NCBI GenBank assembly: GCA_907163375.1
Contig: CAJQUW010009247.1
Span: 1-64,000 of the forward strand
Direction: 5' to 3'
Length of the DNA: 64,000 nucleotides
From: Prostheceraeus crozeri
Lineage: Eukaryota; Platyhelminthes; Polycladida; Euryleptidae
Positions within the stretch are counted from its first letter, which is position 1. Each line of letters opens with the position of its first letter. Under the pieces are notes generated by a model that saw only the letters and a list, made by a program, of their open reading frames with translations, ran no database searches and was not told the DNA's origin. Positions 1 through 62,684 of this stretch are shown here, in pieces. Position numbers and translations under genes: made by a program.

Positions 1-3000
1 GAATGCGACGATCGGCAATGTGCTGACTGTGGACACATCTTCACGAGGAAGCGTGATCTCATCCGATACATCAAGCGAGGTGTTTGTAGACCTAAGCCGG
101 CATCAATCTCCGAAGGTAGGGATGATTCTGTTAACGATGTCTCCTTTTCTTGCGATTTATGCATTCAGTCTTTCGAGACACGTTTTGAACTATCTTCGCA
201 CAGACTTCAAGATACACACACGAACGATACCTACACCAACGGTACCTCCTCTATCCGACTCACTGAGGTGTCCATAAATAATTTAGTGAGGAACTACCAG
301 ATGGACTCCTCAGAAACCATTGCTAACTTTGAGGAATGGTTTCATCAAAATTCATCATTGATAGAAGCGCTCTTCAACAATTTAGACAATTTTAGAATGA
401 AGGCGCTCATCTATCTTAAAATAAAATATGTAAAAATCGACCACCATACTGGACAAATAATAGAGAGGTTGGAGTTTCACATACCCTCCTCTCCTGCAAC
501 CGAAGTTGTAGACTGTGAGTCTTGGATAAATTTTCATATCCAAGGGTTAAAATTAAATATAGATAAATTTAACGAGCGTGATAGTGGACTCGTTTTTGAT
601 GGTATTGAGACCGCCATGATTAAAATCAGTTTATTAGGAAATCATAGTGGTCGAGGCTCCTTTAAACTTCCGAAAAATTTAAGAAATAAAGCAGCAGTCA
701 TTTCTGTAGATTGCGAATCGCAATGTTTTAAGTATGCCGTCCTCTCCATTCTCCACTATAATGATGTGCAGAATAGTCGATACCGCAAGAGTAAGTATCA
801 ACAGTGGGAGAATGAATTAAACTTCGATGACTGTAATAGTGACGATATGAAAATTAAAGATATAGAAAAATTTGAAAAATTGAACAACATCAAAATAGTT
901 CTCCATGTTTGGGAAAAGGGATTGAAGGGTGTGCGCTACAACTCGCGTTCGAGTTGTTATGAACGTACAGTAAACCTGTTATTAGTAAAACAGGATGATA
1001 GTGAGGAATGGCACTACTGCGGTATTCCCAAAATCTCTCGCTTATACCACCACTTAGAAAACTCTAGTAGAGAGTTATATTACTGCGACAGATGTATTCG
1101 CCACTTTAGGAGGAAAACTAAATTTGAAACTCATTACGAATGGTGTAAGCGAGGTAAACTGCAAATGGAGCGCATGCCCAAAGATAAGGAGTTTTCATAT
1201 AGAGAGAATGGTGATGAACTAAGTCCTCTTCGTGTCATCTATGCTGACATCGAATGTTATATCGATGATAACATCCATCGACCAGCAGCCATTTCCTGCT
1301 ATGAAGTATGGCATGATCACTTTAGGAGTAGGCAAAATAAAATGCGCGTCTGGCAAGGTGAGGATTGTATTTACCAATTCCTACAATTCCTCGAACAGGC
1401 TGTAAAATTTCAACAAAAACATGATGGTGAACTCTATCGCAGATCATTGCATATGACAGCAGATGATCAAGCAAAATTTGATAGTTGCAACATTTGCCCC
1501 AAATGTAGGAAAACATTTGACGATGATAAGATTAAGAAAGTGCGCGACCATGATCACATCAATGGTAAATTTAGAAACGCACTCTGTTCAAAATGCAATT
1601 TTTCACTTAGGATGAAACGGCGTACATTACCAGTCATTTTCCATAATTTCAAGGGCTACGACAACCATATGATAATAAAAGGAGGTTTAGGTCAAATGAA
1701 AGAGTGGAAGCTTGATGTAATAGCACAAACGAGAGAGAAGTTTAGGGCCATGACAGCAAAAGTGCCTGTCGATAAAACTAAAGAAAATAAGACGGTCTAT
1801 TTTGATATAAAATTTTTAGATTCCTACCAATTTATGACTGCATCACTGGCCTCTCTCGTGCAAAATCTAAAGTCTCTTCCACTAACACAAAATCTTAAGA
1901 AACAATACCCAAATCTAACCGATGAAGTCATCACACGGAAAGGAGTCTTTCCATATGCATATTTTGATGCGATTAGTAAACTCGGCGAGACTTCTCTTCC
2001 GCCCATAGATAAATTTAAAAATGATTTGACCGGCGCAGAATGTAAGACCGAAGATTATGATCATGCACAAGATGCATGGATAAAATTTGACTGCCATACA
2101 TTTGGTGAATATATGATTGCCTACCTTAAGTTAGATGTATTTTTGCTGGCTGATGTATTTCAGGAGTTTCGACGAGTGGCATTAGAAGAAGATAAGTTAG
2201 ATCCCGTCCACTTTGTCAGTCTGCCAGCCATGTCATTTAAGTCTGCTTTTAAAATGACTGGTGAGACCATTCATCTCTTACAAGATCCAGAGATGTATAA
2301 TTTATTTGAGCGAGGAATTCGCGGTGGTCTCACATTTGTAAATAAACATAGGTTAAAATCTGAAACAGTAGGCAATGACCAGACTCATCTGAAGTATTAT
2401 GACGAAAATAATTTGTATGGTAGTTCATTATCCAAACCGCTACCTCACTCTGAGTTTAGCTGGTTAGATGATAGTGATATTCAACATTTCTCCAACCCTT
2501 CTAACATACTAGCAATTCCAGATGAAGGTGATTGGGGATATTATTTTGAGATAGATCTAATCTATCCAAATAATATTAAACATAAAACCGTAGATTTTCC
2601 ACTCGCACCCGAATCAGGTGAAGTGAGTAAAGATATGTTTTCCGACTTTATGAAACAATTTCATAAAGATTTAGAATCATGTGGACAACCCGACTATAAG
2701 CCTTGTCGCAAACTTTTACTCACCCAGTATGATAAAGAAAACTATCTAGTCCACTTTAGCATCTTAAAATTTTATTTAGAAATGGGTATGATTTTAAAAA
2801 GAGTTCACCGCATTATTAAATTTAGACAGAAAGCCTTCCTCAAGCCATATATTGATAGCAACAGCCAGAAACGTGCACTAGCCCAAAATAACTTTGAAAA
2901 AGATTTTTATAAATATAAGAACAACAGTCTATTTGGTAAGACGATGGAGGATGTTAGAAAGCGCGTAAACTACAAACTAGTTAATGATGATCAAAAGTAT

Positions 3001-3750
3001 CACAAATTGACCTCATCACCTCTATTCATCGATAGAGACATTATCGATGAGGACCTTATAGGTGTTAAAATGATAAAATCTGAAGTTGAGTTGTGCAAAC
3101 CCATCTATATTGGTCAAGCTGTACTAGATTATTCTAAGCTTGAAATGTACCAACTCTTTTATAAAATACTAAAACCATGTCCTCTCGTAAAAGAGGTTCG
3201 TTTGTTGGGTGGTGATACAGATAGTTTCTTCTTAGGTATTACCACTCAAAAAGATTTAAATTTCAATGAAGTAGGAAAATCTTTAGAAATATATTTTGAT
3301 ACATCAAATTATCCTGCTGATCATCCACTCTACTCCATCAAAAATAAGGCAAAACTTGGCTGCTTTAAGGATGAGACAGCAGGGAAGGAAATAGATGAAA
3401 TGATTCTCCTCCGTCCAAAAATGTATTCTATGAAATTAAAGGATAGTGATGATAGCATTAAGCGCGCTAAAGGCATATCAAAATCCATTGTGCAAAATAT
3501 GAAACATAAGAATTTCAGGAAAGCCTATAGAAATAAAAATATAACGTTGGTCAATATGACAATCTTAAAATCTAAGTCGCATGAGATCAAAACTCATACT
3601 TTTAGGAAACGGGCGCTTTCAGCATGGGAGGATAAGAGGTGCTGGTTAGAACACAACATATCTCTTCCACATGGACATCCTGACACAAACATACCACCAC
3701 CCAAAAGAATTAAACTCACACTACCACATTCAGGAGACGTCTTAGCATAA
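1..3750 (+). CDS. polB: Polinton/adintovirus-type family B DNA polymerase, 5' end outside window
   Basis: Replicative DNA polymerase of a Polinton/Maverick element, expected to be protein-primed with 3'-5' proofreading. The frame is open from base 1 to the stop at 3748-3750 (at least 1249 residues), so the ATG at 301 is probably internal. The first 100 codons contain two zinc-finger-like motifs: a C-x2-C...C version with the usual His replaced by Tyr (about 19-87), and a C2H2 version (about 154-216). A further CxxC...H...C finger lies near 1081-1150. Exo I is ADIEC (about 1244-1258). An endonuclease-VII-like zinc motif with CxxC, RDHDHINGKFR and CSKCN spans about 1494-1600. Exo II is HNFKGYDNHM and Exo III is YLKLDVFLLAD. 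Polymerase motif A is YDENNLYGSS (about 2398-2427), motif B KNNSLFGKTM (about 2920-2950), motif C GGDTDSFF (about 3208-3231), and the late RPKMYS motif is near 3412. No frame break is seen. Polinton family placement is confident; exact boundaries of the domains are by eye. Confidence 0.95.
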   Translation, partial: ECDDRQCADCGHIFTRKRDLIRYIKRGVCRPKPASISEGRDDSVNDVSFSCDLCIQSFETRFELSSHRLQDTHTNDTYTNGTSSIRLTEVSINNLVRNYQMDSSETIANFEEWFHQNSSLIEALFNNLDNFRMKALIYLKIKYVKIDHHTGQIIERLEFHIPSSPATEVVDCESWINFHIQGLKLNIDKFNERDSGLVFDGIETAMIKISLLGNHSGRGSFKLPKNLRNKAAVISVDCESQCFKYAVLSILHYNDVQNSRYRKSKYQQWENELNFDDCNSDDMKIKDIEKFEKLNNIKIVLHVWEKGLKGVRYNSRSSCYERTVNLLLVKQDDSEEWHYCGIPKISRLYHHLENSSRELYYCDRCIRHFRRKTKFETHYEWCKRGKLQMERMPKDKEFSYRENGDELSPLRVIYADIECYIDDNIHRPAAISCYEVWHDHFRSRQNKMRVWQGEDCIYQFLQFLEQAVKFQQKHDGELYRRSLHMTADDQAKFDSCNICPKCRKTFDDDKIKKVRDHDHINGKFRNALCSKCNFSLRMKRRTLPVIFHNFKGYDNHMIIKGGLGQMKEWKLDVIAQTREKFRAMTAKVPVDKTKENKTVYFDIKFLDSYQFMTASLASLVQNLKSLPLTQNLKKQYPNLTDEVITRKGVFPYAYFDAISKLGETSLPPIDKFKNDLTGAECKTEDYDHAQDAWIKFDCHTFGEYMIAYLKLDVFLLADVFQEFRRVALEEDKLDPVHFVSLPAMSFKSAFKMTGETIHLLQDPEMYNLFERGIRGGLTFVNKHRLKSETVGNDQTHLKYYDENNLYGSSLSKPLPHSEFSWLDDSDIQHFSNPSNILAIPDEGDWGYYFEIDLIYPNNIKHKTVDFPLAPESGEVSKDMFSDFMKQFHKDLESCGQPDYKPCRKLLLTQYDKENYLVHFSILKFYLEMGMILKRVHRIIKFRQKAFLKPYIDSNSQKRALAQNNFEKDFYKYKNNSLFGKTMEDVRKRVNYKLVNDDQKYHKLTSSPLFIDRDIIDEDLIGVKMIKSEVELCKPIYIGQAVLDYSKLEMYQLFYKILKPCPLVKEVRLLGGDTDSFFLGITTQKDLNFNEVGKSLEIYFDTSNYPADHPLYSIKNKAKLGCFKDETAGKEIDEMILLRPKMYSMKLKDSDDSIKRAKGISKSIVQNMKHKNFRKAYRNKNITLVNMTILKSKSHEIKTHTFRKRALSAWEDKRCWLEHNISLPHGHPDTNIPPPKRIKLTLPHSGDVLA

Positions 3751-4598: not shown

Positions 4599-4709
4599 TA
4601 TATTGATAGCAACTTTAGATTCTTCATAAGACTGGTAAATTTTCTTGATGCGATCGCCATAGATGTCCACCCACCATTCATCATTAACTGAATCAGCTTT
4701 AGTGTGATA

Positions 4710-5576: not shown

Positions 5577-5615
5577 ATTATTCACATTGGAAAAATATAA
5601 TAGCATACTTTTGCA

Positions 5616-6116: not shown

Positions 6117-6128
6117 CAACACTCTTGT

Positions 6129-7013
6129 TTAATGTAAGAAACCACCAAAAGGCTCTACACACTTTCTGTATAAAGATACGGCCCATTCTGTATCAAATTG
6201 ATTTGGCCTTTCACATGGTAAATGTTGCATATCAGATTTTCCATGAACAGCTGCAGAACGATGTCGTAAGAACTGATGAAAATCTTTTGAACAAACTAAT
6301 ACTAGATCATCATCATTTAATTTGCTTATTGCAATATGATTAGATGATTTGATATAAGTCAATGTTGCCACTTGTTTACCATCAACTCGAAGGAGATAAT
6401 TAAATTTCTTCAATAATGTTTCAGGAGTCATGTTTGTCTTTCTTGGCTTAATCACAATCTTCTTCACCAACGTCTTCTCATTTCTTGGAATAACACCTAC
6501 ATAATAAGCTTCCTCTCGATATATTAACTGTTTATGACCACTTATGTGGTAATTAACGTTAAAATTATCATAGCTTGTTAAGGCGCTAGCGAGGTAGCCT
6601 AAATCATTTCTTAAACTTGGACTTAAACCAACAATCCAATCTTTCTCAACTACATGATGTACATAATTATAATCATCATTGTGTGGAGTAAATTGGACAA
6701 TATGTTTACACGCTTTATTCAAGAAATCATATATAAACTTTTTACATGATAAGAGATCTTTCTTTGACCACTGTGGAATGTATACTCGGCACCCCTTTTC
6801 ACATTGGTAAGCAGCTGTACGCCTTATATTAATAGTCATCACCTCATGATCAAAAGTATAGACACAGTTGCTATAAACAAGTTGAGTGACACCCACTTCC
6901 CAATTTCCATTTAGCTGTTGTACATGATCAATGGGAGTAGAAAAGAGTGCAGCTCGATTACTAGTAAATCTCTTTGTAGCCGCATTGCTAAGCAAAATAT
7001 GATAAAACGACAT
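6129..7013 (-). CDS. N-terminal half of conserved Polinton virion protein, copy B
   Basis: About 294 residues from the ATG at 7011-7013; earlier in-frame starts would be non-ATG. The N-terminus MSFYHILLSNAATKRF and the strand NGNWEVGVTQLVYSN align with the signature of copy A (4710-5576), so the two are tandem duplicates that have diverged strongly. The stop at 6129-6131 is followed in the same frame by the C-terminal half. An ATGCAAA motif lies 22 nt upstream of the ATG. Confidence 0.65.
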   Translation of the reverse strand: MSFYHILLSNAATKRFTSNRAALFSTPIDHVQQLNGNWEVGVTQLVYSNCVYTFDHEVMTINIRRTAAYQCEKGCRVYIPQWSKKDLLSCKKFIYDFLNKACKHIVQFTPHNDDYNYVHHVVEKDWIVGLSPSLRNDLGYLASALTSYDNFNVNYHISGHKQLIYREEAYYVGVIPRNEKTLVKKIVIKPRKTNMTPETLLKKFNYLLRVDGKQVATLTYIKSSNHIAISKLNDDDLVLVCSKDFHQFLRHRSAAVHGKSDMQHLPCERPNQFDTEWAVSLYRKCVEPFGGFLH

Positions 7014-7048
7014 TTTTATATTGCTAATCTGCAACTTTGCATAACATC
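7014..7048. promoter_or_regulatory. 35-bp divergent intergenic spacer with ATGCAAA motif
   Basis: This spacer separates the minus-strand virion block (ATG at 7013) from the plus-strand cassette (ATG at 7049), so any promoter here must be bidirectional or lie in the flanking genes. Minus-strand ATGCAAAGTTG occupies 7032-7042, and a short A/T run (ATATAAAA in minus orientation) lies next to the minus-strand ATG. The motif recurs at 5610, 7393, 10550 and 13157. Confidence 0.4.
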
Positions 7049-7405
7049 ATGAAGACTTGGATTTTGGACTCTCTACAATATATCAGAGTTGATCGTGATG
7101 GAAACGTACATTTCAAAAATTCTCATGGTCATACATCAAGAGGAATTACATTAACATGGCGACAATTTGTCAACCTCAATGATATCATGAGGGATTTGGA
7201 ATATTTTGAAACATTAAGATTCATCTCTTTGGGTGATCAAGTTTGGCTTCAACATTACAGAAATGAAATTCAAATCTACCATTCTCATTCCGCAAACTGT
7301 TTCTCATTTCGCAAATACAATTGGGAGAAGTATAGAAGATATATACATCGCTCCATCATGACATTTATTCGTCGTGAGTTCATCGCCCTACTATGCAAAT
7401 CTTAA
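7049..7405 (+). CDS. Small nucleic-acid-binding-like protein, short paralog
   Basis: 118 residues from ATG 7049. It is paralogous over its whole length to the first 110 residues of the next gene (7428-8078): shared features are a start with W-x-LDSLQ-I, GNV-F, ...R-F..L..IM.DL, a G-x-x-VWL/IWL strand, IQ(I/L)YHS and a closing WEKY(R/K)R-x-(I/V)HRSI helix. I do not recognise a named family. The order of short strands followed by an ITL...F..L..I helix is loosely like PC4/p15 single-stranded-DNA-binding coactivators, which is only a guess. Its last codons contain the ATGCAAAT octamer that precedes the next gene. Confidence 0.6.
   Translation: MKTWILDSLQYIRVDRDGNVHFKNSHGHTSRGITLTWRQFVNLNDIMRDLEYFETLRFISLGDQVWLQHYRNEIQIYHSHSANCFSFRKYNWEKYRRYIHRSIMTFIRREFIALLCKS
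7393..7400 (+). promoter_or_regulatory. ATGCAAAT octamer upstream of 7428 gene
   Basis: The plus-strand octamer ATGCAAAT lies 27 nt before the ATG at 7428 and overlaps the last codons of the preceding ORF. It is in the same orientation and at a similar spacing as the four minus-strand copies upstream of genes at 5576, 7013, 10518 and 13134. Confidence 0.4.
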
Positions 7406-7427: not shown

Positions 7428-8078
7428 ATGAGTTGGAAATTAGATTCCCTACAACGTATTGAAACGGATCATGATCGAAACGTCTATTTCAAAGATTCAA
7501 CTGGAAATGTGAGAAGAGAGTTTGCTTTATCTTATCGTCATTTTCAATCTCTACATCATATCATGAAGGACTTGAAATACTTCTATATGAAAAGACATTC
7601 ACGTATTGGAAATCGCATCTGGCTGCGCGTCAACAATCGGCGAATTCAACTCTATCATTCCCAACTTCATACTAACTTCACATTTCATCAAGGTAGTTGG
7701 GAAAAGTATAAAAGGAAGGTACATCGCTCAATTTACTCATTCTTTCATCATGAAGCGCCATCGCTACACCATCGTCAACATTCTCCGTCGCTTCAGACTC
7801 TACACCAAAATCGATCTCACAACATTACACCAACAGCTTCCAAACAGCAAGTATTACCCGGGCCGTCCTCAAATGTTAGTGGTGAAGATGAACAATTCAC
7901 GAAATCTTCAACTCTTCCCAAATGGGACTGTACAGATTCTCGGCGCCCTTTCTCATTCATCGGCGCAGTCAATGCGCTTAGAGCTACAAAGACTACTACG
8001 TCGGATATGGAAGAGGGAGAGGTGTGTGATGTCGAATCTGACTGTGGACAATATGGTGATCTCTACTCAATTGAGTGA
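7428..8078 (+). CDS. Companion protein of TBP-like gene (long paralog), overlapping frame
   Basis: 216 residues from ATG 7428. Residues 1-110 form the same domain as the 7049-7405 product, ending in SWEKYKRKVHRSI. The rest is a His/Ser/Pro-rich low-complexity tail. This tail overlaps the TBP-like ORF (7750-8295) by 329 nt in another frame, and still keeps a RRPFSFIGAVNALR motif and an acidic C-terminus (DMEEGEVCDVES...YSIE). Both tail motifs recur in the second copy at 62055-62684, where the overlap is also kept. That argues that both frames are translated. Function unknown; location beside a TBP-like protein suggests a role in element transcription. Confidence 0.7.
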   Translation: MSWKLDSLQRIETDHDRNVYFKDSTGNVRREFALSYRHFQSLHHIMKDLKYFYMKRHSRIGNRIWLRVNNRRIQLYHSQLHTNFTFHQGSWEKYKRKVHRSIYSFFHHEAPSLHHRQHSPSLQTLHQNRSHNITPTASKQQVLPGPSSNVSGEDEQFTKSSTLPKWDCTDSRRPFSFIGAVNALRATKTTTSDMEEGEVCDVESDCGQYGDLYSIE

Positions 8079-8295
8079 CAGTCTATCATTTTTGAAGATT
8101 CGTACCAGCAGTTACAGTTTGTGTTATGAACCCGAACTTTTTCCTGCAGCTCTCATTAGTTGTTGGTTACCTGTGCATGTGGCAATCTTTCATAATAGTA
8201 AAGTGATCATTACTGGACTAAAATCTCATGTACAAGCAAATATGATCCTAGACTATCTCATTGAGTATGTACGTACCCAGCGGATTGTAAAATAA
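7750..8295 (+). CDS. TATA-binding-protein-like protein encoded by a Polinton
   Basis: 181 residues from ATG 7750, the length of a TBP core domain. Two direct repeats are visible. Repeat 1 has YYPGRPQMLVVKM, then NLQLFPNGTVQILGALS. Repeat 2 has NLTVDNMVISTQLS, then YEPELFPAALI and VAIFHNSKVIITGLKS. The YEPELFP and (I/L)F-x-x-G/S-K-V-x-x-TG sequences match the corresponding strands of TBP repeats. Three of the four Phe positions that intercalate at the TATA box in TBP appear kept (LF, ELFP, IF); the one in repeat 1 is replaced in GRP. The longer upstream open frame starts with a non-ATG codon and has no TBP similarity. The stop codon lies inside AATAAA (8291-8296). A diverged second copy lies at 62344-62901. 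Homology is by eye and strong in repeat 2; TATA binding itself is inferred. Confidence 0.85.
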   Translation: MKRHRYTIVNILRRFRLYTKIDLTTLHQQLPNSKYYPGRPQMLVVKMNNSRNLQLFPNGTVQILGALSHSSAQSMRLELQRLLRRIWKRERCVMSNLTVDNMVISTQLSDSLSFLKIRTSSYSLCYEPELFPAALISCWLPVHVAIFHNSKVIITGLKSHVQANMILDYLIEYVRTQRIVK

Positions 8296-8326
8296 AAAAC
8301 AATTTTTCCAACATGATGTTTTTATT
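8291..8326. terminator. Back-to-back poly(A) signals embedding both stop codons
   Basis: On the plus strand AATAAA (8291-8296) contains the TAA stop of the TBP-like gene. On the minus strand AATAAA (8326-8321) contains the TAA stop of the protease gene (8322-8324). The two convergent transcription units are therefore separated by only about 26 bp, a virus-like compaction. Confidence 0.55.
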
Positions 8327-8783
8327 TCAAATCATGATAGAACTTACAAATCATTTTTTCATTAGAGGATGGATTACATGAAAAGTTTTGAATAATAGAT
8401 GCAAATCGAGATACATGTAAACGTTTTAAGATGAAGTACAGTACAAAAGCACCACACGTTGATGAAAGTGGATGTTGTAGTATGCGTTCATTTCGCTGAT
8501 ATTGACGCGTATGTTTTCTCAACCACTGCTGTGTTGGTATATTTGGAGGTTGAGCAAGAGAGTCAAATAGTTCACCACGTCGGTCTTCTCCAATAAAGAT
8601 CGCTTTCCAATGCTCACCGCCTAAATTCTGTGAATGAGTGTTTAGCACAATAAAGATGGGATAGTGATTTACTGCAGGTGGTAAGGTATCGAGTGAATAG
8701 ACATTATCGAAAGCTTTCAACGTCGCTTCGTCTGCATTACGCTGCACTTTAGTCTTAATATCGTCAGCAGTCAACCAACTCAT
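8322..8783 (-). CDS. PRO: Adenain-like maturation cysteine protease
   Basis: 153 residues from ATG 8781-8783. Peptidase family C5 (adenovirus-type) protease that would cleave capsid and core precursors during virion maturation. Visible active-site features are GGEHW (His58), ELFDS (Asp74), and QHPLSSTCG with Gln103 and Cys110. The Gln-to-Cys distance of seven is the same as in adenain. The family is usually longer (about 200 residues), so this is a compact member. It follows the capsid gene with the ATG sharing a base with the capsid TAA (TAATG), which suggests coupled or leaky translation or a spliced late mRNA. Confidence 0.92.
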   Translation of the reverse strand: MSWLTADDIKTKVQRNADEATLKAFDNVYSLDTLPPAVNHYPIFIVLNTHSQNLGGEHWKAIFIGEDRRGELFDSLAQPPNIPTQQWLRKHTRQYQRNERILQHPLSSTCGAFVLYFILKRLHVSRFASIIQNFSCNPSSNEKMICKFYHDLK

Positions 8784-10060
8784 TAACGATTATACTGAAG
8801 AATCACGTCACGATACTTTGTAATTTCAATATTTGAATCGAAGACTGCATAAATTAATACATTGATCGTCTCAGGTAGTGTTCTTTTGAACGTCAAATCC
8901 AAACGAATATTATGAGGCACGTTCGCTTGACGATAGGGTGCACTAATATCGCTGTCAGCAGTCAAATCAAATGCATAAATAGTATATCCACTCTTAAACT
9001 CTTTCATAGTCAGTCCGTTGGTGTCATCCGTATTGTAAAAGCCAAAAACATCCATAAAATCAACATAACTGCGCATAAATTGATCCGAAGCAAAATCTGG
9101 TTTGTAGGGTGGACCAGGATGACTCACACCATTTACACGTAAAGCAATTTCACTTAACTGATTGTGTTTAAAATTGAAAGGATTCTTCTTTATATTACCA
9201 TTAAATGCATCATTTTCAACCATTGCCACCATGAGGAGCTTCGGTGCTTCCGATGGAAAGAGGCCATCTTTCATGAAACTCTTTTGATCTTTCGGAATTG
9301 TAAAGGTGAGAAGCTTTGTATGCTGAATAGGGTAAATGGCATTTTGGCGGTTAAGGCCTTCAGCATGCCCTCTAATGACACTTGGATTCGGTACTACTCG
9401 ACGAATGTAAAGTGCAATATCTTCCACATGAATTCTAAAATTGTCAACTTTAGCAAATGCATTCAGCGCAAATTCAGGCTTATTCAATGTCAGCTTGAGT
9501 CGCATGCTGGTATTACACAGTAAAAACTTTGACTGTCTAAAGAAGTCTAAATTCAGCGGACCATATAGCTGACATACTCTACTATTTTTAATCATAGCAG
9601 ATCGCTTTACAAAGCCACTGATTGTTTCAACATCAAATTTTCCTGCTTCATCTCTGTACCATCCCATGGCTTCCATATGACTTTTTTGTGCTGCTGGATG
9701 AAACTGTGATACATGATTGAAATATGATTTATAGGGATAATCGCTTTGACCACCTTCCACTTGCTGCTCTCCAATCGTTAGAGAAACATCACGAAGTAAT
9801 GTAGTCAATGGTAAATTGTTCAGTCCAACTTTATGTGCATCGTCAATAGCAGTTCCATCTGCTTGCTGAATTCTAAACCTCAAATCAAGCATCGCATAAC
9901 TCAAATCTATGTAGTCATCACTACCACCAGGAATAACAAATTCAATGGGGCCAGCATTCTCAGCTGTTCGAGGATGATAATCTACAATACTTGAACTAAG
10001 AATATCTGTCTGTATGGCTTGTTGATCGAACAAACAAAAACCGGAAGTTTTACACTCCAT
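8783..10060 (-). CDS. MCP: Polinton major capsid protein (double jelly-roll, hexon-like)
   Basis: 425 residues from ATG 10058-10060. The N-terminal region (SGFCLFDQQAIQTDIL, then GPIEFVIPGGSDDYIDLSYA) is the hallmark of the metazoan Polinton major capsid protein, a double jelly-roll related to adenovirus hexon and virophage capsid. Other typical segments are TTLLRDVSLTIGEQQVEGG and the C-terminal FDLTADSD...NIRLDLTFKRTLPETINVLIYAVFD; the latter two-strand ending is characteristic. Full length with no break. It lies between the basic core-like protein (2-nt gap) and the protease (overlapping stop/start), in the normal virion-gene setting. Confidence 0.93.
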   Translation of the reverse strand: MECKTSGFCLFDQQAIQTDILSSSIVDYHPRTAENAGPIEFVIPGGSDDYIDLSYAMLDLRFRIQQADGTAIDDAHKVGLNNLPLTTLLRDVSLTIGEQQVEGGQSDYPYKSYFNHVSQFHPAAQKSHMEAMGWYRDEAGKFDVETISGFVKRSAMIKNSRVCQLYGPLNLDFFRQSKFLLCNTSMRLKLTLNKPEFALNAFAKVDNFRIHVEDIALYIRRVVPNPSVIRGHAEGLNRQNAIYPIQHTKLLTFTIPKDQKSFMKDGLFPSEAPKLLMVAMVENDAFNGNIKKNPFNFKHNQLSEIALRVNGVSHPGPPYKPDFASDQFMRSYVDFMDVFGFYNTDDTNGLTMKEFKSGYTIYAFDLTADSDISAPYRQANVPHNIRLDLTFKRTLPETINVLIYAVFDSNIEITKYRDVILQYNR

Positions 10061-10062: not shown

Positions 10063-10518
10063 TTAGAAGTTATAGCAGCGTCGTCGTTTAGCGCCTGATG
10101 AATGATTAGAGCCTCTGCGACGTTTGCGTGAATGCCTTTTGACTGAAGATCGCACCTTACCAGCTCCGCGATGTTTCCTCCTTCCTTTATTCATTCGTTT
10201 AGGTGATTTCTTTCCTTGAGTAACACCAGCAATGGTCTGCTTCAATGTTTTTAAACCGCGTTCCTTCCCACGATTCAACAAACTGCTCTTAAAACTTCTA
10301 CCTCTGGAAAGATCACTAGCAACATCACCAGCAAAGCCAACGGCATTACTTAAAACATTTCGTTTTAAAGATCTACCGACATTGGATATGAGAGGTGCTA
10401 CAACAGATTTCAGTGCACCAAGTATGCTACCTCCACGTTGGCGGCGAGCACCGATGTAAATTTGTCCTCCGCCACTTACATAGGAGGGTCGTGAATAAAA
10501 TGAGGCAGTTGGATTCAT
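10063..10518 (-). CDS. Basic virion core-like protein
   Basis: 151 residues from ATG 10516-10518. N-terminal Tyr/Gly-rich stretch, then RQRGGSILGALKSVVAPLI, an amphipathic helix candidate, then an Ala/Val segment (NAVGFAGDVASDLSRG), and a strongly basic Arg/Lys C-terminus (RRKHRGAG, RHSRKRRRG, KRRRC). Small proteins with an RGG-x-LG...P amphipathic segment and a basic tail accompany the capsid gene in many Polintons and resemble adenovirus core/pVI-type proteins. DNA condensation or membrane activity is inferred. An ATGCAAAGTTG motif lies 31 nt upstream of the ATG. Confidence 0.7.
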   Translation of the reverse strand: MNPTASFYSRPSYVSGGGQIYIGARRQRGGSILGALKSVVAPLISNVGRSLKRNVLSNAVGFAGDVASDLSRGRSFKSSLLNRGKERGLKTLKQTIAGVTQGKKSPKRMNKGRRKHRGAGKVRSSVKRHSRKRRRGSNHSSGAKRRRCYNF

Positions 10519-10559: not shown

Positions 10560-11648
10560 TCACTGTCGATTACTTAGATGAAAGATGTCGGCACGACGCA
10601 TCCAAGAGTTCATACTTGAAGGATAACCAGTCCATTTAACAAGACACCATTCTTCACCTTGCCGTTTTTTACATCGAATGATTTTCTCTACCAAATATGT
10701 TTCACTTTCAGTGACTACCTCAATCTCATCGCGGTAAAAGCTACCCTCAATTTCTTCATTATCGTAATCTTTCAACTTGTAGGTGGTCGGAGAGTCTTTT
10801 TGATTAATCCTTGATACTGTAAATACCTCCTCTGTCCAATTCGGAAGGTACCCTTTAGCAAAAACACTTTTCACTTTTGAGATACGAACTTTATCGCCAA
10901 TTTTCACATCACTTTTCACATGAGTGCGTTTACGTTGGAATGATTCGCGCACTTTATCTACATTGTCAGCATTTACATCTACTGGTCTGAGTCCAATAGA
11001 ACGATGGATAGAGTGATTGTAGGCATGGAGTGTATCTTGTAGAACCTTTGTCCAATTTTGTGTCAAGTTGGCAGTAAAATGTCGCCACAAGCGGTTTTTT
11101 AATGTGCGATTAAAACGTTCAACGAGTGCAGCTTTATAAGCGCTCTTTACACTAAACAACTCAATGTCATGCCTCTCAAATAATCTTGTCACATGCTGAT
11201 TTTCAAACTCTTTTCCTTGATCACTCTGAATTCTTTTTGGAATGCGACCTTCTCGAAAAATTTTTTGGAATGCTTTTGCTACTCCTTTCCCTTCTTTAGT
11301 TTTTAAAGGTTGAGCCCACGCATAACGCGAGAAAATATCAATGACGGTTAAAATAAAATTATTGCCCGAGTTATGTTTTGAAATGGAGGCAACATCGCAC
11401 AAATCTGCTTGCCACTGTTCATCGATGTCATGAACAATATAATGGCGGGTGCGGTACTTCTTTTTCGCTTGTTTGTGGAGTGTATAGGTAGCCTGACCCT
11501 TTAACCATCGTTTCACTTGTGATTGTGGAAGACCACTCGCTTTTGATAATTTCTTGATAGATGCAAATCCTGCCGGATGTTTTACATCATAATAGATTGA
11601 CTTCAAACGTTCAGTCGATGACGGCTGACTCTTTTTCCTCCTTCTCAT
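10560..11648 (-). CDS. INT: Polinton integrase (DDE) with C-terminal chromodomain
   Basis: 362 residues from ATG 11646-11648. The product inserts the element by retroviral-integrase chemistry. N-terminal region LKSIYYDVKHPAGFASIKKL and WLKGQATYTLHKQ is the typical Polinton integrase helix-turn-helix part. The rve core shows WQADLCD (Asp82), QSDQGKEF (Asp143) and VERFNRTLK (Glu177). The last 45 residues form a chromodomain (YLVEKIIRCKK, WCLVKWTGYP, NSWMRRADI), which in other integrases can direct integration to modified histones. The frame is open for 44 more codons upstream (to 11780). That extension lies mostly in the 442-bp duplicated segment and is shared with the pX-like ORF, so the shorter start is preferred. 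Confidence 0.92.
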   Translation of the reverse strand: MRRRKKSQPSSTERLKSIYYDVKHPAGFASIKKLSKASGLPQSQVKRWLKGQATYTLHKQAKKKYRTRHYIVHDIDEQWQADLCDVASISKHNSGNNFILTVIDIFSRYAWAQPLKTKEGKGVAKAFQKIFREGRIPKRIQSDQGKEFENQHVTRLFERHDIELFSVKSAYKAALVERFNRTLKNRLWRHFTANLTQNWTKVLQDTLHAYNHSIHRSIGLRPVDVNADNVDKVRESFQRKRTHVKSDVKIGDKVRISKVKSVFAKGYLPNWTEEVFTVSRINQKDSPTTYKLKDYDNEEIEGSFYRDEIEVVTESETYLVEKIIRCKKRQGEEWCLVKWTGYPSSMNSWMRRADIFHLSNRQ

Positions 11649-11826
11649 CTTTTTGTTTTCTTGCCTTTCTACATTTACAACAACTGCAGCATTTAGCTTT
11701 AGCGGTTTTGCGATCGTGTTCACATTGCTTAGGGGTTTCATTATGAGAGCTGGCGCAGCAAGTGCAAGTGACAACGACATTCACCTCTGGCGGCTCATTA
11801 CATGGCAAGCAACACATCTGCTTCAT
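11611..11826 (-). CDS. Small Cys-rich protein, copy 1
   Basis: 71 residues. The ATG (11824-11826) comes one base after the stop of the preceding gene, the tight packing seen elsewhere in this block, and the ORF overlaps the integrase start by 38 nt. Cysteines occur as CC..C, CTCC, C and CCSCCKC, followed in this copy by a Lys/Glu tail. It looks like a metal-binding miniprotein; no named family is recognised. A second copy (13413-13583) shares the first 52 residues and ends with YTTC instead. It could be a non-coding shadow of the 44-codon integrase extension, although the Cys pattern argues against this. Confidence 0.4.
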   Translation of the reverse strand: MKQMCCLPCNEPPEVNVVVTCTCCASSHNETPKQCEHDRKTAKAKCCSCCKCRKARKQKDEKEEKESAVID

Positions 11827-13134: not shown

Positions 13135-13156
13135 TTTATTACTTTGAGACTCAACA

Positions 13157-13163
13157 TTTGCAT
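13157..13163 (-). promoter_or_regulatory. ATGCAAA motif upstream of ATPase gene
   Basis: Minus-strand TTATGCAAATGTTG, 22 nt before the ATPase ATG and just upstream of the pX-like stop. It is one of five such sites in the virion block and plus-strand cassette. Confidence 0.4.
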
Positions 13164-13165
13164 AA

Positions 13166-13537
13166 TTAACGCTTAGAGCCAAAGATATTTCCCAATAGGT
13201 TGCCCACGGCAGGAGCTATCATTGGAAGTATTGCTGAAAGGAAACCGCCCTTTTGTGTTAGAGTTTTCCTCTTTCTTTGAAGGGCGACTTTAGGATTGGA
13301 GATGAAACGCAATTTCGTAGCATATCGCTTAAGTAACTTTCGTTGTTTTGGCGCTAATTTCTTCGTCCTCAACTTCCTCACATGAGAAATAATTTCACAA
13401 ATGAATTTATCGTTAGCATGTCGTATAGCATTTACAACAACTGCAGCATTTAGCTTTAGCGGTTTTGCGATCGTGTTCACATTGCTTAGGGGTTTCATTA
13501 TGAGAGCTGGCGCAGCAAGTGCAAGTGACAACGACAT
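13166..13537 (-). CDS. pX/mu-like small virion protein with duplicated N-terminus
   Basis: 123 residues. From residue 37 on it is a typical Polinton pX/mu-like protein: AIRHANDKFICEI, a Lys/Arg-rich middle (KKLAPKQRKLLKRYATKLRF), a KRKTLTQKGGFLSA processing-like Gly-Gly site and a hydrophobic amphipathic C-terminus (IAPAVGNLLGNIFG). Such proteins are linked to DNA condensation or membrane disruption. The first 36 codons lie in the 442-bp duplicated segment and are identical to the N-terminal extension of the integrase frame, so the original start was probably replaced or the true ATG is internal (Met14, at about 13498). Confidence 0.65.
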   Translation of the reverse strand: MSLSLALAAPALIMKPLSNVNTIAKPLKLNAAVVVNAIRHANDKFICEIISHVRKLRTKKLAPKQRKLLKRYATKLRFISNPKVALQRKRKTLTQKGGFLSAILPMIAPAVGNLLGNIFGSKR

Positions 13538-14379: not shown

Positions 14380-14423
14380 GTGGTGGTGAGGGTTTCATCC
14401 TGCCAACTGACAGAGTCGCGTAA

Positions 14424-30943: not shown

Positions 30944-30998
30944 TATCGCTGATTTGCTTTCATTCGTCGGAGAGCTTGAATGGCTGAAGAAAACTTTT
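30944..30998. other. 55-bp unique spacer between array and right inverted-repeat arm
   Basis: Not found at the left junction. No gene or motif recognised. Confidence 0.5.
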
Positions 30999-31484
30999 GA
31001 CTTTTACGTTTCGTCATTTTACGTTTCGCCATTTTCCGTGTTAGTCTTTGCTAAAACCTATCTTTACCACATTTGCATAGGTACTAACTATTGCGACATA
31101 AGTGACACTCGAAATGAGCAATGTCACAGTGGTTACATTGGCAAAGTTGAATGCAATTACGTATGAAACAGCGTTGACAAAATGCATGCTTACATCTCTT
31201 GAAGATGCGCTTTTCATTTCCATCCTTTCGCTTACATACATCGCAGCACATAGTTTCACCGTTACTGATGTCTATAGCAAGTCTTTTTGAAGATATGAAT
31301 TTGCTAGCCTTTTCTAAATAATAGACGCATGTACAGAAGGAATATACTTCGAGAGTGAGCAGACATAGCTCGAAAACCAGTTGTGCTACAATCAAGTACC
31401 ACTGCATTTTCAATTTTTCTTTATGGAAAGTTGAATGTGAATATCTGAAATCGCTTCAATCACTAGACTGCTACCATGATGGTT
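30999..31484 (-). repeat. Right arm of 486-bp inverted repeat
   Basis: Reverse complement of 13866-14351. It contains the RING-like gene and the 3' end of the 31410-31820 gene, and runs without break into the rest of the Polinton right part. Confidence 0.9.
31084..31407 (-). CDS. RING-like zinc-finger protein, right copy
   Basis: 107 residues, same protein as 13943-14266; the two silent differences seen suggest either very recent duplication or gene conversion. It begins a few bases after the stop of the 31410-31820 gene on the same strand, so here it sits in a natural gene series. Cys/His pattern as described for the left copy. Confidence 0.6.
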   Translation of the reverse strand: MQWYLIVAQLVFELCLLTLEVYSFCTCVYYLEKASKFISSKRLAIDISNGETMCCDVCKRKDGNEKRIFKRCKHAFCQRCFIRNCIQLCQCNHCDIAHFECHLCRNS

Positions 31485-31820
31485 AAATGCGTTAAGACGT
31501 TCAGCAATTTTTATCATATGTCTTTTAAGAAATTCTTCGGGGTGATCTACCACTTCCATTGAATAAGAAGCAAAATGGAAAGAGCGACTTTCCACCTCTT
31601 CCTTTCCAAAATGACTAAACTTAATTTTCGCAACTAATCGCGCCATGACAATGCTATCAGAGAATGTATTCATTAACTCTAGAAATAGAGTGCTAGCATC
31701 ATCGACCACTGCTTCGATGTCGGTCTCATCTTTATGAAAATTTATCACATAATCTTGAACAGCTCCTTTTAAACTTTGCCTATGAAAACGTAATGTTCCG
31801 CAGTCGTTTGAGAAAGACAT
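31410..31820 (-). CDS. Stand-alone protein resembling the N-terminal domain of Polinton polymerases
   Basis: 136 residues from ATG 31818-31820. The middle (ARLVAKIKFSHF, then a FHFASYSMEVV stretch) and the end (ERLNAFNHHGSSLVIEAISDIHIQL) fit a domain commonly found at the N-terminus of Polinton polymerases or as a separate ORF, with a K-I/L-x(V/F) strand and a closing GSG-x-x-(I/L)-x-x-I-x-x-(I/L)-x-I pattern. The polymerase at 1-3750 has an analogous segment (NERDSGLVFDGIETAMIKIS). Function unknown. A near-match of the ATGCAAA motif (ATGCAAT, 31846-31852) lies 25 nt upstream. Confidence 0.55.
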   Translation of the reverse strand: MSFSNDCGTLRFHRQSLKGAVQDYVINFHKDETDIEAVVDDASTLFLELMNTFSDSIVMARLVAKIKFSHFGKEEVESRSFHFASYSMEVVDHPEEFLKRHMIKIAERLNAFNHHGSSLVIEAISDIHIQLSIKKN

Positions 31821-31907
31821 GATCGCCCTTTAACTAACCCATCCATTGCATGAAAACAACAACTCTTCTCATAGTAACATTTATTGAATAACGGTAACAA
31901 GCATGCA

Positions 31908-32438
31908 TTATAAATCAATGGTTTGAAAGAGATAAAATAGATACAGCTGATAACTATCATCCAGCGAGCAATGATAACCATACAGGACTTTGGCAGTGTT
32001 GAGGTAAGGAGGAAAGAAGCATTGGTTATGAACGTAGCTACTACAACGAACAGACAAAATAGGAACACACAAATCCTTAAAACGTTTCGTGACTTCATGA
32101 TAATGTTGATTCACTCTACTATCCCAAGGCGGGAGCAAAATATCATCAATGATTAGATTGGGAAATACTTTCCTCTCCTTACCAGGATTATTACAAAAGA
32201 TGCGTATAACATTGAAAGCAGCTAACCATCGTTTAAAGTCAATAAGAAGAGCACTTTCACAAGAAAAGCCATAGTCTTGCAAATATTTCAGATTAAGTCC
32301 ATGAATGTGTTTTCTCGCCCATTGATCAACATTGGGATCGCAGTTGGCATGTTGATGATAGACACTAACAATCTGATATGTCCAATTGTTCATAGCAATA
32401 GCACTGAGCTCCTGTACAGGTTCACCCTCACAATCCAT
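31908..32438 (-). CDS. DnaQ-like exonuclease-like Polinton protein
   Basis: 176 residues from ATG 32436-32438. It opens MDCEGEPVQELSAIAMN, with D-x-E followed by VQEL. It then has QWARKHIHGLN, a central FKRWLAAFNVIRIFCNNPGKE, then LPPWDSRVNQHYHEV, and the closing LYGYHCSLDDSYQLYL. This order is typical of a frequently seen Polinton ORF that resembles RNase-H-fold 3'-5' exonucleases, with the D-x-E and the late HC-x-L-x-D as candidate metal ligands. Activity is inferred, not shown. A longer antisense-frame ORF (31769-32098) on the same strand is treated as a shadow. Confidence 0.6.
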   Translation of the reverse strand: MDCEGEPVQELSAIAMNNWTYQIVSVYHQHANCDPNVDQWARKHIHGLNLKYLQDYGFSCESALLIDFKRWLAAFNVIRIFCNNPGKERKVFPNLIIDDILLPPWDSRVNQHYHEVTKRFKDLCVPILSVRCSSYVHNQCFFPPYLNTAKVLYGYHCSLDDSYQLYLFYLFQTIDL

Positions 32439-32490
32439 AAAAATGATGATAGAAGCCTAAAACGGAAATTTACACATCTAAGGAAACGTT

Positions 32491-32691
32491 CTATAACATA
32501 TTACAAAATGAAGAATTACATCGATGCTTTTCACGACAAAATACACAAATGATATGATGGCAACGAAGAAGTAAAATGTATCTAATAAGACCACGTCTAC
32601 GACACTCAAAGCACATAAGCGAATTGTCATAGGGTAGAGTTAGGAAAGGACTAGTAATTCTCCTTCTTTGATTTGCGTTTTGATGTAGCAT
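32491..32691 (-). CDS. Small second RING-like ORF
   Basis: 66 residues from ATG 32689-32691. Cys/His cluster CFEC, 11 residues, CHHIICVFC, then C and C near the end follows the first part of a RING finger, as in the larger RING-like protein of this element. It overlaps the basic tail of the neighbouring gene in another frame by about 40 nt. Short, so moderate confidence only. Confidence 0.4.
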   Translation of the reverse strand: MLHQNANQRRRITSPFLTLPYDNSLMCFECRRRGLIRYILLLRCHHIICVFCREKHRCNSSFCNML

Positions 32692-33422
32692 TCTTCTCCG
32701 ACTTGCGCTTCGTACCACTGCTGTTAAGGATTTGATCAATTATGTCGTCCACGTTGGGTGGTTTTGGAATATATAGGATGGATTCCATATGCATGGAGAG
32801 AGAGGCTATTTTATTATCCTTGTGTCGACCATAATATAGCCCATTCACTTTGAAATATCCCAAGTACCTTCTCCGAGCTCATCACATCTGATGGGTATTG
32901 AATGATCTCTATCCTTCTTATAGTAAGTACACCAATGTGATACCGGTAGGCAAATGTGATTACCATCCCAAATCTTCCTATAGGGAGTATCCTTGTCATC
33001 TCTCGCCTTCCACTCTTGAGGAAGAGGAGTAGGAATGTCCATATTTAATGTCACGTACTCCTCAATAATATCAAGTTGGTGGCGAATGTACGGACTCACG
33101 GGGATCAGTATGTAGTCCCCATACTGATTGTGCATTATCTTGACATCCGTGGAAGGGAGCATTCCCGTTTGGAGTACTACGCTATGATCATCATAACGCA
33201 AGGCTTGTTTAAATTTACGCTGTAGCGGTGTAGGATTATGTACCTTGGATGTTTCTTCCACTGGCCTCAGTTGTAGATGATCTGACCGTAGCGAACCTTG
33301 TAACGTTTGACCGCCATTTTGTCCTACTAGTGCAGCAGATGGAGTAGATGCCTGAAAATGAAAAAAGATTGTATTAAGTTTACGTTCAAGGGAGGAGAGG
33401 GAGGGAAGTAGCGACTTACCAT
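32651..33422 (-). pseudogene. Spliced Polinton gene with 1-base frameshift
   Basis: Exon 1 is just the ATG (33420-33422), followed by GTAAGT. The intron is 33352-33419 (68 nt, pyrimidine-rich end, CAG). Exon 2 starts at 33351 and is open to a stop at 32845. Its middle has the pattern YRKIWDGNHICLPVSHWCTYY and ELGEGTWDIS, seen in a conserved Polinton ORF. The matching continuation (VNGLYYGRHKD, then SLSMHMESILYIP and a Lys-rich tail) is in the minus-one frame and ends at 32651. A single lost base near 32846-32853 explains this. It may be true decay, a sequencing error or, less likely, programmed shifting, since no canonical slippery heptamer is seen. Confidence 0.65.
33352..33419 (-). other. 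68-nt spliceosomal intron directly after the ATG
   Basis: Donor ATG|GTAAGT, acceptor TTTTTTCATTTTCAG|GC. Removing it joins the ATG to an open frame of 507 nt. Without splicing the ATG is followed by codons of unrelated low-complexity sequence. Confidence 0.7.
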
Positions 33423-33519
33423 TTTAGTTGGATAATAGAACAGGGAACTAGAGAGAGAGAAAATGTGCGTCCGTCACTCGTGTGATTCAACGATGAAATG
33501 ATTCTCACTGTGGAAGGCT

Positions 33520-33570
33520 CGCTATTTATAAAGAAATGCTTGATTCTCATTGGATGATGATCCTCATTGG
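33520..33570 (-). promoter_or_regulatory. TATA box with two upstream CCAAT boxes
   Basis: In minus orientation CCAAT lies at 33570-33566 and at 33553-33549, then CTTTATAAATAG at 33533-33522, about 100 nt before the spliced ATG at 33422. Layout and order are those of an RNA polymerase II promoter. TATAAATAG recurs in the repeats at 62980-63660. Confidence 0.65.
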
Positions 33571-33574
33571 ACAA

Positions 33575-35387
33575 TAACATCAAGCTGATTCGAAATCTGG
33601 CCTCCGTTTACCCATCCGAGCCTTCGTTTTGGTGCTACAACCCAAAACGTCCCAAATTCTAACTCTGTCGTTTTTCGCCAATGTCCCAAAATCTTAAATG
33701 GTGTCTCACATCTAAACGAAGACAGATAGGAACAAGCCGTTTCTTTCACTGAATTTGTCTCACTCTTAGCTTTCAAACGAGCTATCGCACGACAAAATCC
33801 GTCCACTGGAAGCCAAAATCGAAGCAAGCTGTCCAGAGGGGGGGGACGTCAGTGAAATTTCAGAATTTGATGAAAAATGTTTTGGTGACGGTCCCAGGTC
33901 GAAATTCCACACTTTGGAAAATTTTCAAAATTTTACCCATACAAAGTCACTCTGACACTTAGGATTTTTTCAGGTAAGCGAGCTCCGACCTAAAATCTTG
34001 TAACCGCACTAACTTTTGAACGAAGACAGATAGGAACAAGCCGATTCTTTCACTGAATTTGTCTCACTCTTAGCTTTCAAACGAGCTATCGCACGACAAA
34101 ATCCGTCCACTGGAAGCCAAAATCGAAGGAAGCTGGCCAGAGGGGGGGGGGACGTCAGCGAAAATTTTTCTATCCGATTGACTTGAAACTCACCATACCG
34201 ATGCAGAATTTCACGCTGAATCCGAATCTGGCCTCCGTTTTCTCATCCGATGCTTCGTTTTGGCTCTACAGTAGGCAGCCATCGCAAAAATTCTAACTCT
34301 GTCGTTTTTTCGAAAAATGTTGAAAATTTTTTCTCTCCGATTGACTTGAAACTCACCATACAGATAGAGAATTTCACGCTGATTCCAAATCTGGCCTCCG
34401 TTTACCCATCCGAGCCTTCGTTTTGGTGCTACAGCCCAAAACGTCCCAAATTCTAACTCTGTCGTTTTTCGCCAATGTCCCAAAATCTTAAATGGCGTCT
34501 CACATCTAAACGAAGACAGATAGGAACAAGCCGATTCTTTCACTGAATTTGTCTCACTCTTAGCTTTCAAACGAGCTATGGCACGACAAAATCCGTCCAC
34601 TGGAAGCCAAAATCGAAGCGAGCTGTCCAGAGGGGGGGGACGTCAGCGAAAATTTTTCTATCCGATTGACTTGAAACTCACCATACCGATGCAGAATTTC
34701 ACGCTGAATCCGAATCTGGCCTCCGTTTTCTCATCCGATGCTTCGTTTTGGCTCTACAGTAGGCAGCCATCGCAAAAATTCTAACTCAGTCGTTTTTTCG
34801 AAAAATGTTGAAAATTTTTTCTCTCCGATTGACTTGAAACTCACCATACAGATAGAGAATTTCACGCTGATTCCAAATCTGGCCTCCGTTTACCCATCCG
34901 AGCCTTCGTTTTGGTGCTACAGCCCAAAACGTCCCAAATTCTAACTCTGTCGTTTTTCGCCAATGTCCCAAAATCTTAAATGGCGTCTCACATCTAAACG
35001 AAGACAGATAGGAACAAGCCGTTTCTTTCACTGAATTTGTCTCACTCTTAGCTTTCAAACGAGCTATCGCACGATAAAATCCGTCCACTAGAAGCCAAAA
35101 TCGAAGCAAGCTGTCCAGAGGGGGGGGACGTCAGCGAAAATTTTTTTCTCTCCGATTGACTTGAAACTCACCATACCGATGCAGAATTTCACGCTGAATC
35201 CGAATCTGGCCTCCGTTTTCCCATCCGATGCTTCGTTTGGGCGCTACACACCAAAACGTCCCAAATTTTAACTCTGTTAAAATTTTGAAGAAAAATTTTT
35301 TCTCGCCGATTGAGCTGGAAATCACACCACAGATGCAGAATTTTACGCTGAATCCGAATCTGGCAGCCATTTCACCATCCACGACAA
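33575..35387. repeat. About 488-bp satellite, partial tandem copies with poly-G tracts
   Basis: The phrase CTGAATCCGAATCTGGCC recurs at 34216, 34704 and 35194 (spacing 488 and 490). Each unit also holds a second, diverged half with CTGATTCCAAATCTGGCC and a run of 7-10 G before ACGTCAG (about 33838, 34141, 34628, 35119). Minus-strand open frames here repeat with the unit and are not considered genes. A related patch in opposite orientation lies at 58750-59400. Confidence 0.8.
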
Positions 35388-35460
35388 CCTAGACGGTCGC
35401 CCACGTCAACCTGGACGGTCGCCCACGTCAACCTAGACGGTCGCCCACGTCAACCAGGCG
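35388..35460. repeat. 22-bp minisatellite, about 3.5 copies
   Basis: Unit CAACCTAGACGGTCGCCCAC plus GT, adjoining the satellite. GC-rich compared with its surroundings. Confidence 0.75.
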
Positions 35461-35665
35461 GTCGGACCAACTCACCCGAGTCTCACACTCTGTCGTTGCA
35501 GAGGGGGGGGGAGTCAGCGAACATGTTGTGAACGTGAACCCACCTGGCCGGCACACCACGACAGACCACAACCTCTGTCGTTCCAGAGGGGGGGGACTCA
35601 GACCCGAAGCACCACGGCGGCCGACCACGACACTCTACCGTTCCAGAGGGGGGGGGGGCGCCGGT
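35461..35665. repeat. Repeated poly-G segments
   Basis: Three tracts of 8-12 G, each preceded by a CGTT(G/C)CAGA sequence (about 35505, 35586, 35647), spaced 61-80 bp. No gene. The GC-rich open frames on either strand have no recognisable domain. Confidence 0.6.
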
Positions 35666-40446: not shown

Positions 40447-40448
40447 TA

Positions 40449-40457
40449 TAATATTCG

Positions 40458-62054: not shown

Positions 62055-62684
62055 ATGTGGAAATTATCAACATGCCTTTATGTATCATGGAAAAATCAGT
62101 GTGTTACATTTCATGATACGAAACGTCAACTTCAGATAACTCTAGAACGCTTTCAACTACGAAGGTTACATCGCGCAATCCTACCCAACTCTTGCCGTGT
62201 CATTAAGGTAGGAGACGGCATTGTATTTATTCGGATTCAAGAGATGATTCTACATAATGATCACTGCTACATCGTGATTCCAAAACTCTCATGGGAAAAG
62301 TATAAAAGGGAAATTCACTCAACCCTCATGTCTTTTGTGAGTCATGCTCCCCATCCGCATCATCAACGCCATGCGCGAAATGAATCTCAGAAGAGACATC
62401 GATTTGGAACAGTTGCATACCCATCTTCCCGATTCAGTCTATCATCGCGGTCGTCCGCAGATGTCGGTCATTCGCATGAGCAACGGTCGAAATCTTCAAA
62501 TCTTTCGCTGCGGCAAAATCCAAGTCCTAGGAAACCTTTCTCATTTCGTGATGCAGTCCATGTGTTACGAAGTCGTCAAGAAAATGCGAACACTCATGCC
62601 TCATCTCCGCCTCAGTCCCCTGACATTGAAGAATATAGCAGTGTCTGTTCAATTGAAGATGTTAGTGAATCTAGCCAACATTAA
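62055..62684 (+). CDS. Companion protein of TBP-like gene, second copy
   Basis: 209 residues from ATG 62055. Its residues 70-95 (SWEKYKREIHSTLMSF) and its tail (HPHHQRHA, SPRKPFSFRDAVHVLRSR, DIEEYSSVCSIEDVS) match the 7428-8078 product; the rest of the N-terminal domain is strongly diverged. The tail again overlaps the TBP-like frame, by 341 nt. Stand-alone copy far from virion genes, possibly the edge of another Polinton continuing beyond the window. Confidence 0.7.
   Translation: MWKLSTCLYVSWKNQCVTFHDTKRQLQITLERFQLRRLHRAILPNSCRVIKVGDGIVFIRIQEMILHNDHCYIVIPKLSWEKYKREIHSTLMSFVSHAPHPHHQRHARNESQKRHRFGTVAYPSSRFSLSSRSSADVGHSHEQRSKSSNLSLRQNPSPRKPFSFRDAVHVLRSRQENANTHASSPPQSPDIEEYSSVCSIEDVSESSQH

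Follow-up and report, generated by a model that had tools for sequence, protein, structure and literature searches.

The DNA analyzed here (the window) is a stretch of 64,000 nucleotides of contig CAJQUW010009247.1 from the polyclad flatworm Prostheceraeus crozeri. It contains a gene for a TATA-binding protein (TBP) that is almost certainly encoded in a Polinton, situated between an overlapping upstream ORF and a convergent protease gene, and a second gene of this type in another element (Table 1). The two elements are assigned to families A and B, respectively.

Table 1. Features of the two TBP-bearing elements in the window
Feature	Position	Strand	Evidence and remarks
Candidate protein-primed family B DNA polymerase (PolB)	268..3750, first ATG 301	+	Pfam Endonuclease_7 8.8e-06; synteny
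Four ORFs, o1-o4	4056-4670, 4710-5606, 5616-6122, 6129-7034	-	Relatives in families C and D
Paralogue of the folded domain of the upstream protein, without tail	7037..7405	+	
Upstream ORF, 216 aa	7428..8078	+	AlphaFold2: two predicted beta-beta-beta-beta-alpha repeats and a long disordered tail
Putative promoter signal TATAAAAG	7707..7714	+	Within the upstream ORF, 43 bp 5' of the TBP start codon
TBP gene, family A (P0001)	7750..8295	+	181 aa; Pfam PF00352 E 4.9e-20; PDB TBPs; AlphaFold2 model
Dual-coded stretch: N-terminal half of TBP and, in the other frame, tail of the upstream protein	7750..8078	+	329 nt
Ulp1/adenain-like cysteine protease, convergent with TBP	8322..8783	-	Peptidase_C48 0.0013, under cut-off
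Putative major capsid protein, 425 aa	8783..10060	-	310 homologues in public protein data (120 among the matches listed)
Basic protein, perhaps a core protein	10063..10518	-	Composition and synteny
Retrovirus-type integrase with chromodomain	10560..11780	-	Pfam rve 6e-11, Chromo 6.1e-07
ORF o5	11828-12520	-	
A32-like packaging ATPase candidate	12517-13182	-	Pox_A32 0.0047, under cut-off; synteny
ORF o6, weakly adenovirus protein X-like	13166..13537	-	Adeno_PX 0.0021, under cut-off; start within inserted duplication
Right part of the family A element	30944..35600, right end approximate		ORFs 31410-31820, 31908-32438 and 32845-33261; RING-like ORF 32491-32739; terminal repeats
Overlapping upstream ORF, family B	62055..62684	+	
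Second TBP, family B, 185 aa	62344..62901	+	Pfam 2.5e-18; BLASTP 42% identity to the first TBP

Retranslation of the first TBP gene returned exactly the coordinates, strand and length given in the first-pass annotation, which had read the product as a TBP core of two repeats. The ORF starts with ATG and encodes 181 residues (MKRH...RIVK) followed by a stop; the frame stays open 5' of the ATG as far as a TTG at 7606. Pfam recognized a single family in the protein, TBP, in two separate stretches and with a score of 71.6 bits (cut-off 22.9); the match covers both repeats, and a chance resemblance through the YEPELFP motif alone is thereby ruled out. In a sequence search of the PDB at E<=10, 35 of the 36 distinct matches were TBPs or TBP fusions (one of them carrying just the name "ECU04_1440 protein"), the sole other match being a TonB chain with E 1.9. 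A profile built from 63 relatives likewise had 35 PDB matches, TBPs or TBP fusions with one named ECU04_1440, the best at 2.8e-24. The NCBIfam model NF001593 matches residues 4-175. Ten NCBIfam TBP models match the protein, each with a score far under its cut-off, the curated one for archaeal TBP equivalogs (PRK00394 set) included; with at best 66.1 bits against 181, it represents a divergent TBP. The structure prediction that had been proposed as a check gave an AlphaFold2 model with pLDDT 94.8 and pTM 0.85, computed from an alignment of the element's own relatives only. Both halves of the model have the TBP order of strand, helix, four strands and long helix (S1-H1-S2-S3-S4-S5-H2), helix 1 of repeat 2 being short. 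Sequence comparison and modeling together confirm the product as a genuine, divergent two-repeat TBP with a predicted TBP fold.

For residue counts, 64 TBP members were aligned with the host TBP, gaps being counted. Yeast TBP residue numbers were placed on the element TBPs through the host TBP alignment, and the positions of the intercalating phenylalanines are those of yeast TBP structures. The set of four DNA-intercalating phenylalanines is incomplete. Three are present, the F116 and F207 equivalents being Phe in all 64 members and the F190 equivalent Phe in 63 and Cys in one; the fourth, equivalent to F99, is Pro in 60, Gln in one and a gap in three. In the window protein, for which the first-pass annotation had counted three of the four as kept, these are F56, F131 and F147, and the fourth position is P40. 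Among the other DNA contacts, the N159 equivalent is Asn in all members and the T215 equivalent is Thr in 63 and Ser in one; the N69 equivalent is Asn in 52 with a gap in 12, the V122 equivalent is Gln in all 64, and the T124 equivalent is Leu (57), Met (5) or Phe (2). Judging from these counts, the C-terminal lobe is near canonical and the N-terminal lobe is changed alike throughout. The acidic pair of the C-lobe, placed by alignment, is also present, with Glu in 63 members and Asp in one at the E186 equivalent and Glu in all 64 at the E188 equivalent. Contact with TFIIB is the role given to this pair in PMC7221094. Four phenylalanines are not needed for TBP membership, because TBPs with three are described for apicomplexans and for African swine fever virus (ASFV) in PMC5825884.

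The placement of the gene in a Polinton, also proposed at first pass, is borne out by profile matches for the integrase and protease, by sequence motifs for the PolB and capsid candidates, and by conservation of gene order. We take the ORF at 268-3750 to encode PolB from the motifs GGDTDS, NSLFGKT and DIE seen in its sequence; comparison with Pfam and PDB gave no PolB profile match and no PDB match. The product of 8783..10060 is presumably the major capsid protein; it matched nothing in Pfam or PDB, and the adjacent basic protein had no convincing Pfam match. The family C homologue of the protease exceeds the Peptidase_C48 cut-off (7.5e-05). Of the Polinton hallmark pair, the integrase with chromodomain is identified by Pfam, and the PolB is a candidate proposed from sequence motifs, the Endonuclease_7 match and synteny. 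Polintons are defined by a protein-primed PolB together with a retrovirus-type integrase (PMC4642659).

The contig begins inside the family A element; other copies extend several kb further to the left, and the right end lies at about 35.6 kb. The full element is estimated at ~24 kb, pieced together from several copies. At the left, some other copies carry the repeats of the right end in inverted form, the exact ends being approximate. Five of the six other family A copies inspected possess the right part and run directly from the position corresponding to 13432 of the window to 30944, while the sixth did not match; the window copy therefore carries a 17.5-kb insertion. Most of it (14380-30943) is made up of a 298-bp unit repeated 55.6 times with 99% similarity between copies, each with a tRNA-Thr(AGT) gene (56 found). 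This array is flanked by inverted element sequence (about 13866-14340 and 31010-31484) and is absent from the junction in all six other copies, one of which does not match the element there either. An exact 300-bp direct duplication within the element (11672-11971 and 13429-13728) has left integrase and o6 with a common N-terminus. Small Cys-rich RING-like ORFs occur at 31084-31413 and 32491-32739, the second with a weak Pfam hint only. Between the two TBP-bearing elements, at 39294-44703, lie several ORFs for mariner-like transposases and a reverse-transcriptase-like ORF.

The window's own assembly (2.05 Gb) was searched for further copies. The best 150 of 11,899 candidates from the protein search were all identical to the query TBP. 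A 33-mer of the TBP gene had 4,732 exact occurrences (2,426 + 2,306) and a 33-mer of the capsid gene 2,592 (1,261 + 1,331), with none for the reversed control in either case. In contigs C1-C215, 38 of the 42 listed capsid 33-mers had a TBP 33-mer 875-881 bp away, and 60 of the 98 listed TBP 33-mers had no exact capsid 33-mer alongside, the string being either altered or lost with its gene. These numbers point to a very large Polinton expansion, in which TBP-bearing copies perhaps outnumber capsid-bearing ones. The eight family A loci compared were the best-scoring ones, so their near-identity is biased and no selection was inferred from it; dN/dS among family B copies, with few changes and mixed ratios (e.g., sd 1 and nd 7 between L048 and L053), was not relied on.

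At least four element families in this genome, A to D, carry the TBP. In families A, C, and D it occupies the same position, adjoining the protease and capsid genes; the family C gene order equals that of family A over the 9.9 kb read, and family D has its o1-o4 block flipped with respect to the TBP, which still faces the protease. The family D copy read has no match to the upstream ORF and has a stop inside the TBP. Three 9.9-kb stretches of family B (L051, L052, and L053) retain PolB, TBP and the partner ORF and show no match for capsid, integrase or ATPase. A stop is present in nearly all of the 150 family B copies listed; in the copies read it falls at residue 180, past the TBP core, and earlier in L042 and L044. 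The family B copy in the window has Ser in place of its relatives' Pro after the third Phe. Many TBP copies are decayed, as the internal stops in the family D copy and in several family B copies show.

The upstream protein is confidently predicted to form its two repeats within the first 108 residues, the remainder being mostly disordered. Relatives were found in families A, B, and C and among public proteins (six, one of them partial); there was no convincing Pfam match and no PDB match. The order of fold elements had raised the possibility of PC4, an identity dropped after these Pfam and PDB comparisons. Families A, B, and C were each given 2000 trials in which TBP codons were replaced by random synonyms, and in none did the second frame remain open. 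Similarity of the tails reached the observed level under the null in 0 of 500 trials for B-C, 1 of 500 for A-B and 23 of 500 for A-C, although it may partly reflect common ancestry at synonymous sites. Both frames thus appear to be kept, the open frames being the stronger evidence and weighing more than the similarity of the tails.

Outside this genome, 61 relatives of the TBP were found at E<=0.001 among public genome and metagenome proteins, and all 63 aligned members match PF00352. No relative turned up in IMG/VR, whether scanned with the TBP, the TBP alignment, PolB, capsid or the host TBP core; archaeal TBPs as queries yielded 12 loci there. The careful tree (46 rows) was built from a selection of 24 Polinton-type rows, the host TBP, 10 archaeal and 11 IMG/VR sequences, L169 being left out as a short match. 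In this tree the Polinton-type TBPs form one group at 100/100, apart from the host, archaeal and IMG/VR TBPs; the same grouping came out of a quick tree with 47 rows. The group stands on a very long stem. Host TBP ranks only 73rd of 81 in similarity to P0001, under most archaeal TBPs, a rank that carries little weight because the host row lacks the last exon. Genes that we take to be the host TBP and TLF were located separately from the elements; TLF is held to be bilaterian. Among the public matches, an upstream ORF (P0063) and a capsid protein (P0070) are 99% identical to those of the window, on contigs of 10.3 and 12.9 kb. Pairing of public TBP and capsid matches through contigs of equal size gave coincidences (TBP 7106, upstream-ORF 7709) and was set aside as weak, at least one TBP-capsid coincidence being expected by chance in 11% of trials. 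The COX1 gene of the assembly gives a clean translation if AAA is read as N, ATA as I, AGA as S and TGA as W, i.e., under the echinoderm/flatworm code, and its sequence looks flatworm-like.

The Pfam scan of the element ORFs revealed no TFIIB domain. A whole-genome search for the TFIIB family gave only four matches at two loci (seven candidates scored), against thousands of element copies. Since so many copies would have shown one, the element has no TFIIB recognizable by a Pfam profile, a search that a very divergent TFIIB would escape. The signal TATAAAAG is found at -43 in family B too and at -46 in family C, and was not seen 5' of the TBP in family D; it sits in Tyr-Lys-Arg codons and may be retained for the protein sequence. 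Five of the 18 family A genes have the word ATGCAAA in the 80 bp preceding them (Poisson 4e-5, uncorrected for the large number of words tried). This word was not found at family C or D gene starts and was rejected as a common promoter motif, and the promoter-motif search, a weak one, revealed none common to the element families.

We consider it probable, judging from sequence and in line with the first-pass idea of a promoter-recognition factor supplied by the element, that the element TBP acts as a promoter-selectivity factor through which element promoters obtain TFIIB and RNA polymerase II from the host. It would be produced early, host TBP acting on a TATA-box promoter of its gene, and would then occupy element promoters, its normal C-terminal lobe reading the 5' half of the TATA box and its remodeled N-terminal lobe a changed 3' half. 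The intact stirrup glutamates would recruit host TFIIB and hence host RNA polymerase II, and transcription of the element genes would thereby be separated from the host TBP/TFIID system. The TBP may have a co-factor in the overlapping upstream protein. A broader proposal, which we put forward tentatively and with somewhat less than even confidence, is half-orthogonal transcription in a lineage of ~24 kb animal Polintons: the element's own TBP with its re-specified N-lobe would choose the promoters, host TFIIB and polymerase II would be borrowed through the untouched stirrup, and dual coding would tie the TBP to a co-evolving partner. Because of the dual coding, TBP and partner would not be easily parted by recombination.

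The same fold could also serve as a DNA-bending architectural protein, or in replication or packaging, for example at the terminal repeats, and not in transcription. The family B stretches of ~10 kb, with the TBP near PolB and no capsid, integrase or ATPase match, would suit such a role, as would the predicted beta-beta-beta-beta-alpha repeats of the partner ORF, a layout that occurs in single-strand DNA binders. The retained TFIIB-contact residues (63 Glu and one Asp; 64 Glu; n=64), however, have no obvious use in bending, and we regard this role as unlikely. Those same glutamates, combined with an altered N-lobe, could titrate TFIIB without forming a normal promoter complex, in which case the protein would be a decoy that binds host TFIIB, and perhaps host promoters, and damps host transcription or silencing without driving element genes. 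Yet the C-lobe DNA contacts (Asn, Val, two Phe, and Thr) are conserved like the TFIIB contacts and would be needless for a pure decoy, and an integrated element would seem to profit little from host shut-off; a decoy is likewise unlikely.

Substitution for TBP in a polymerase III or polymerase I complex, in place of polymerase II, appears very improbable. Brf1 does contact the same TBP stirrup as TFIIB. The Arg that meets the first stirrup glutamate is also described as highly conserved in Brf1 and Brf2 (PMC7221094), but the known element genes are protein-coding ORFs. That the gene derives from recent capture of the host TBP, or that the similarity arose by chance and has no function, is hardly credible: nothing speaks for it beyond the ability of elements to acquire host genes, and against it stand the separate clade (100/100), by which the trees rule out recent capture, the 61 public relatives, and the presence of the gene in at least four element families.

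The protein can be compared with several known systems. It shares with cellular TBPs of archaea and eukaryotes (PF00352) the two repeats, the order of strands and helices, the C-lobe DNA contacts and the TFIIB stirrup glutamates, and differs from them in the Pro, Gln and Leu/Met/Phe at the F99, V122, and T124 equivalents and in forming a separate clade. TBPs of nucleocytoplasmic large DNA viruses (NCLDV), such as ASFV B263R, are likewise virus-encoded and two-lobed, with three phenylalanines in B263R (PMC5825884). According to the survey in PMC7221094, most viral TBPs show divergence at the TFIIB contacts and are accompanied by a viral TFIIB; the first TFIIB-contact glutamate is kept in ~40% of those surveyed, and almost all TBP-bearing viruses surveyed also have a TFIIB-like protein, poxviruses, where none was found, being given as the exception. 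The element TBP, in contrast, keeps the TFIIB contacts, and its element has no recognized TFIIB. The TBP-like proteins of beta- and gamma-herpesviruses, which bind a TATT box on late promoters (EBV BcRF1, KSHV ORF24, and CMV UL87), share the idea of a viral TBP stand-in with a variant box, but have ~10% identity to TBP and work in a six-protein complex (PMC4893493), whereas the element protein is a plain 181-residue TBP core. In its PolB candidate, rve integrase, protease, ATPase candidate and capsid candidate the element resembles Polintons/Mavericks and adintoviruses. No Polinton TBP was found in the open-access papers searched on Polintons, Mavericks, adintoviruses, and virophages; one may have been published elsewhere. 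TBPs have been reported for mirusviruses, and the nearest published case we found is that of TATA-binding proteins in mirusvirus-like elements of Cymbomonas.

Most eukaryotic double-stranded DNA viruses have been considered descendants of Polintons (PMC7805220). A Polinton TBP would explain how the genes of an integrated element are switched on separately from host promoters, and it opens the question of a repeated origin of viral TBPs to testing. The division of promoter recognition and TFIIB recruitment between the two lobes of TBP could also be studied on this simple protein. If transcription in these elements is indeed half-orthogonal, it would represent a third viral TBP design, beside the TBP and TFIIB pair of giant viruses and the six-protein complex of herpesviruses.
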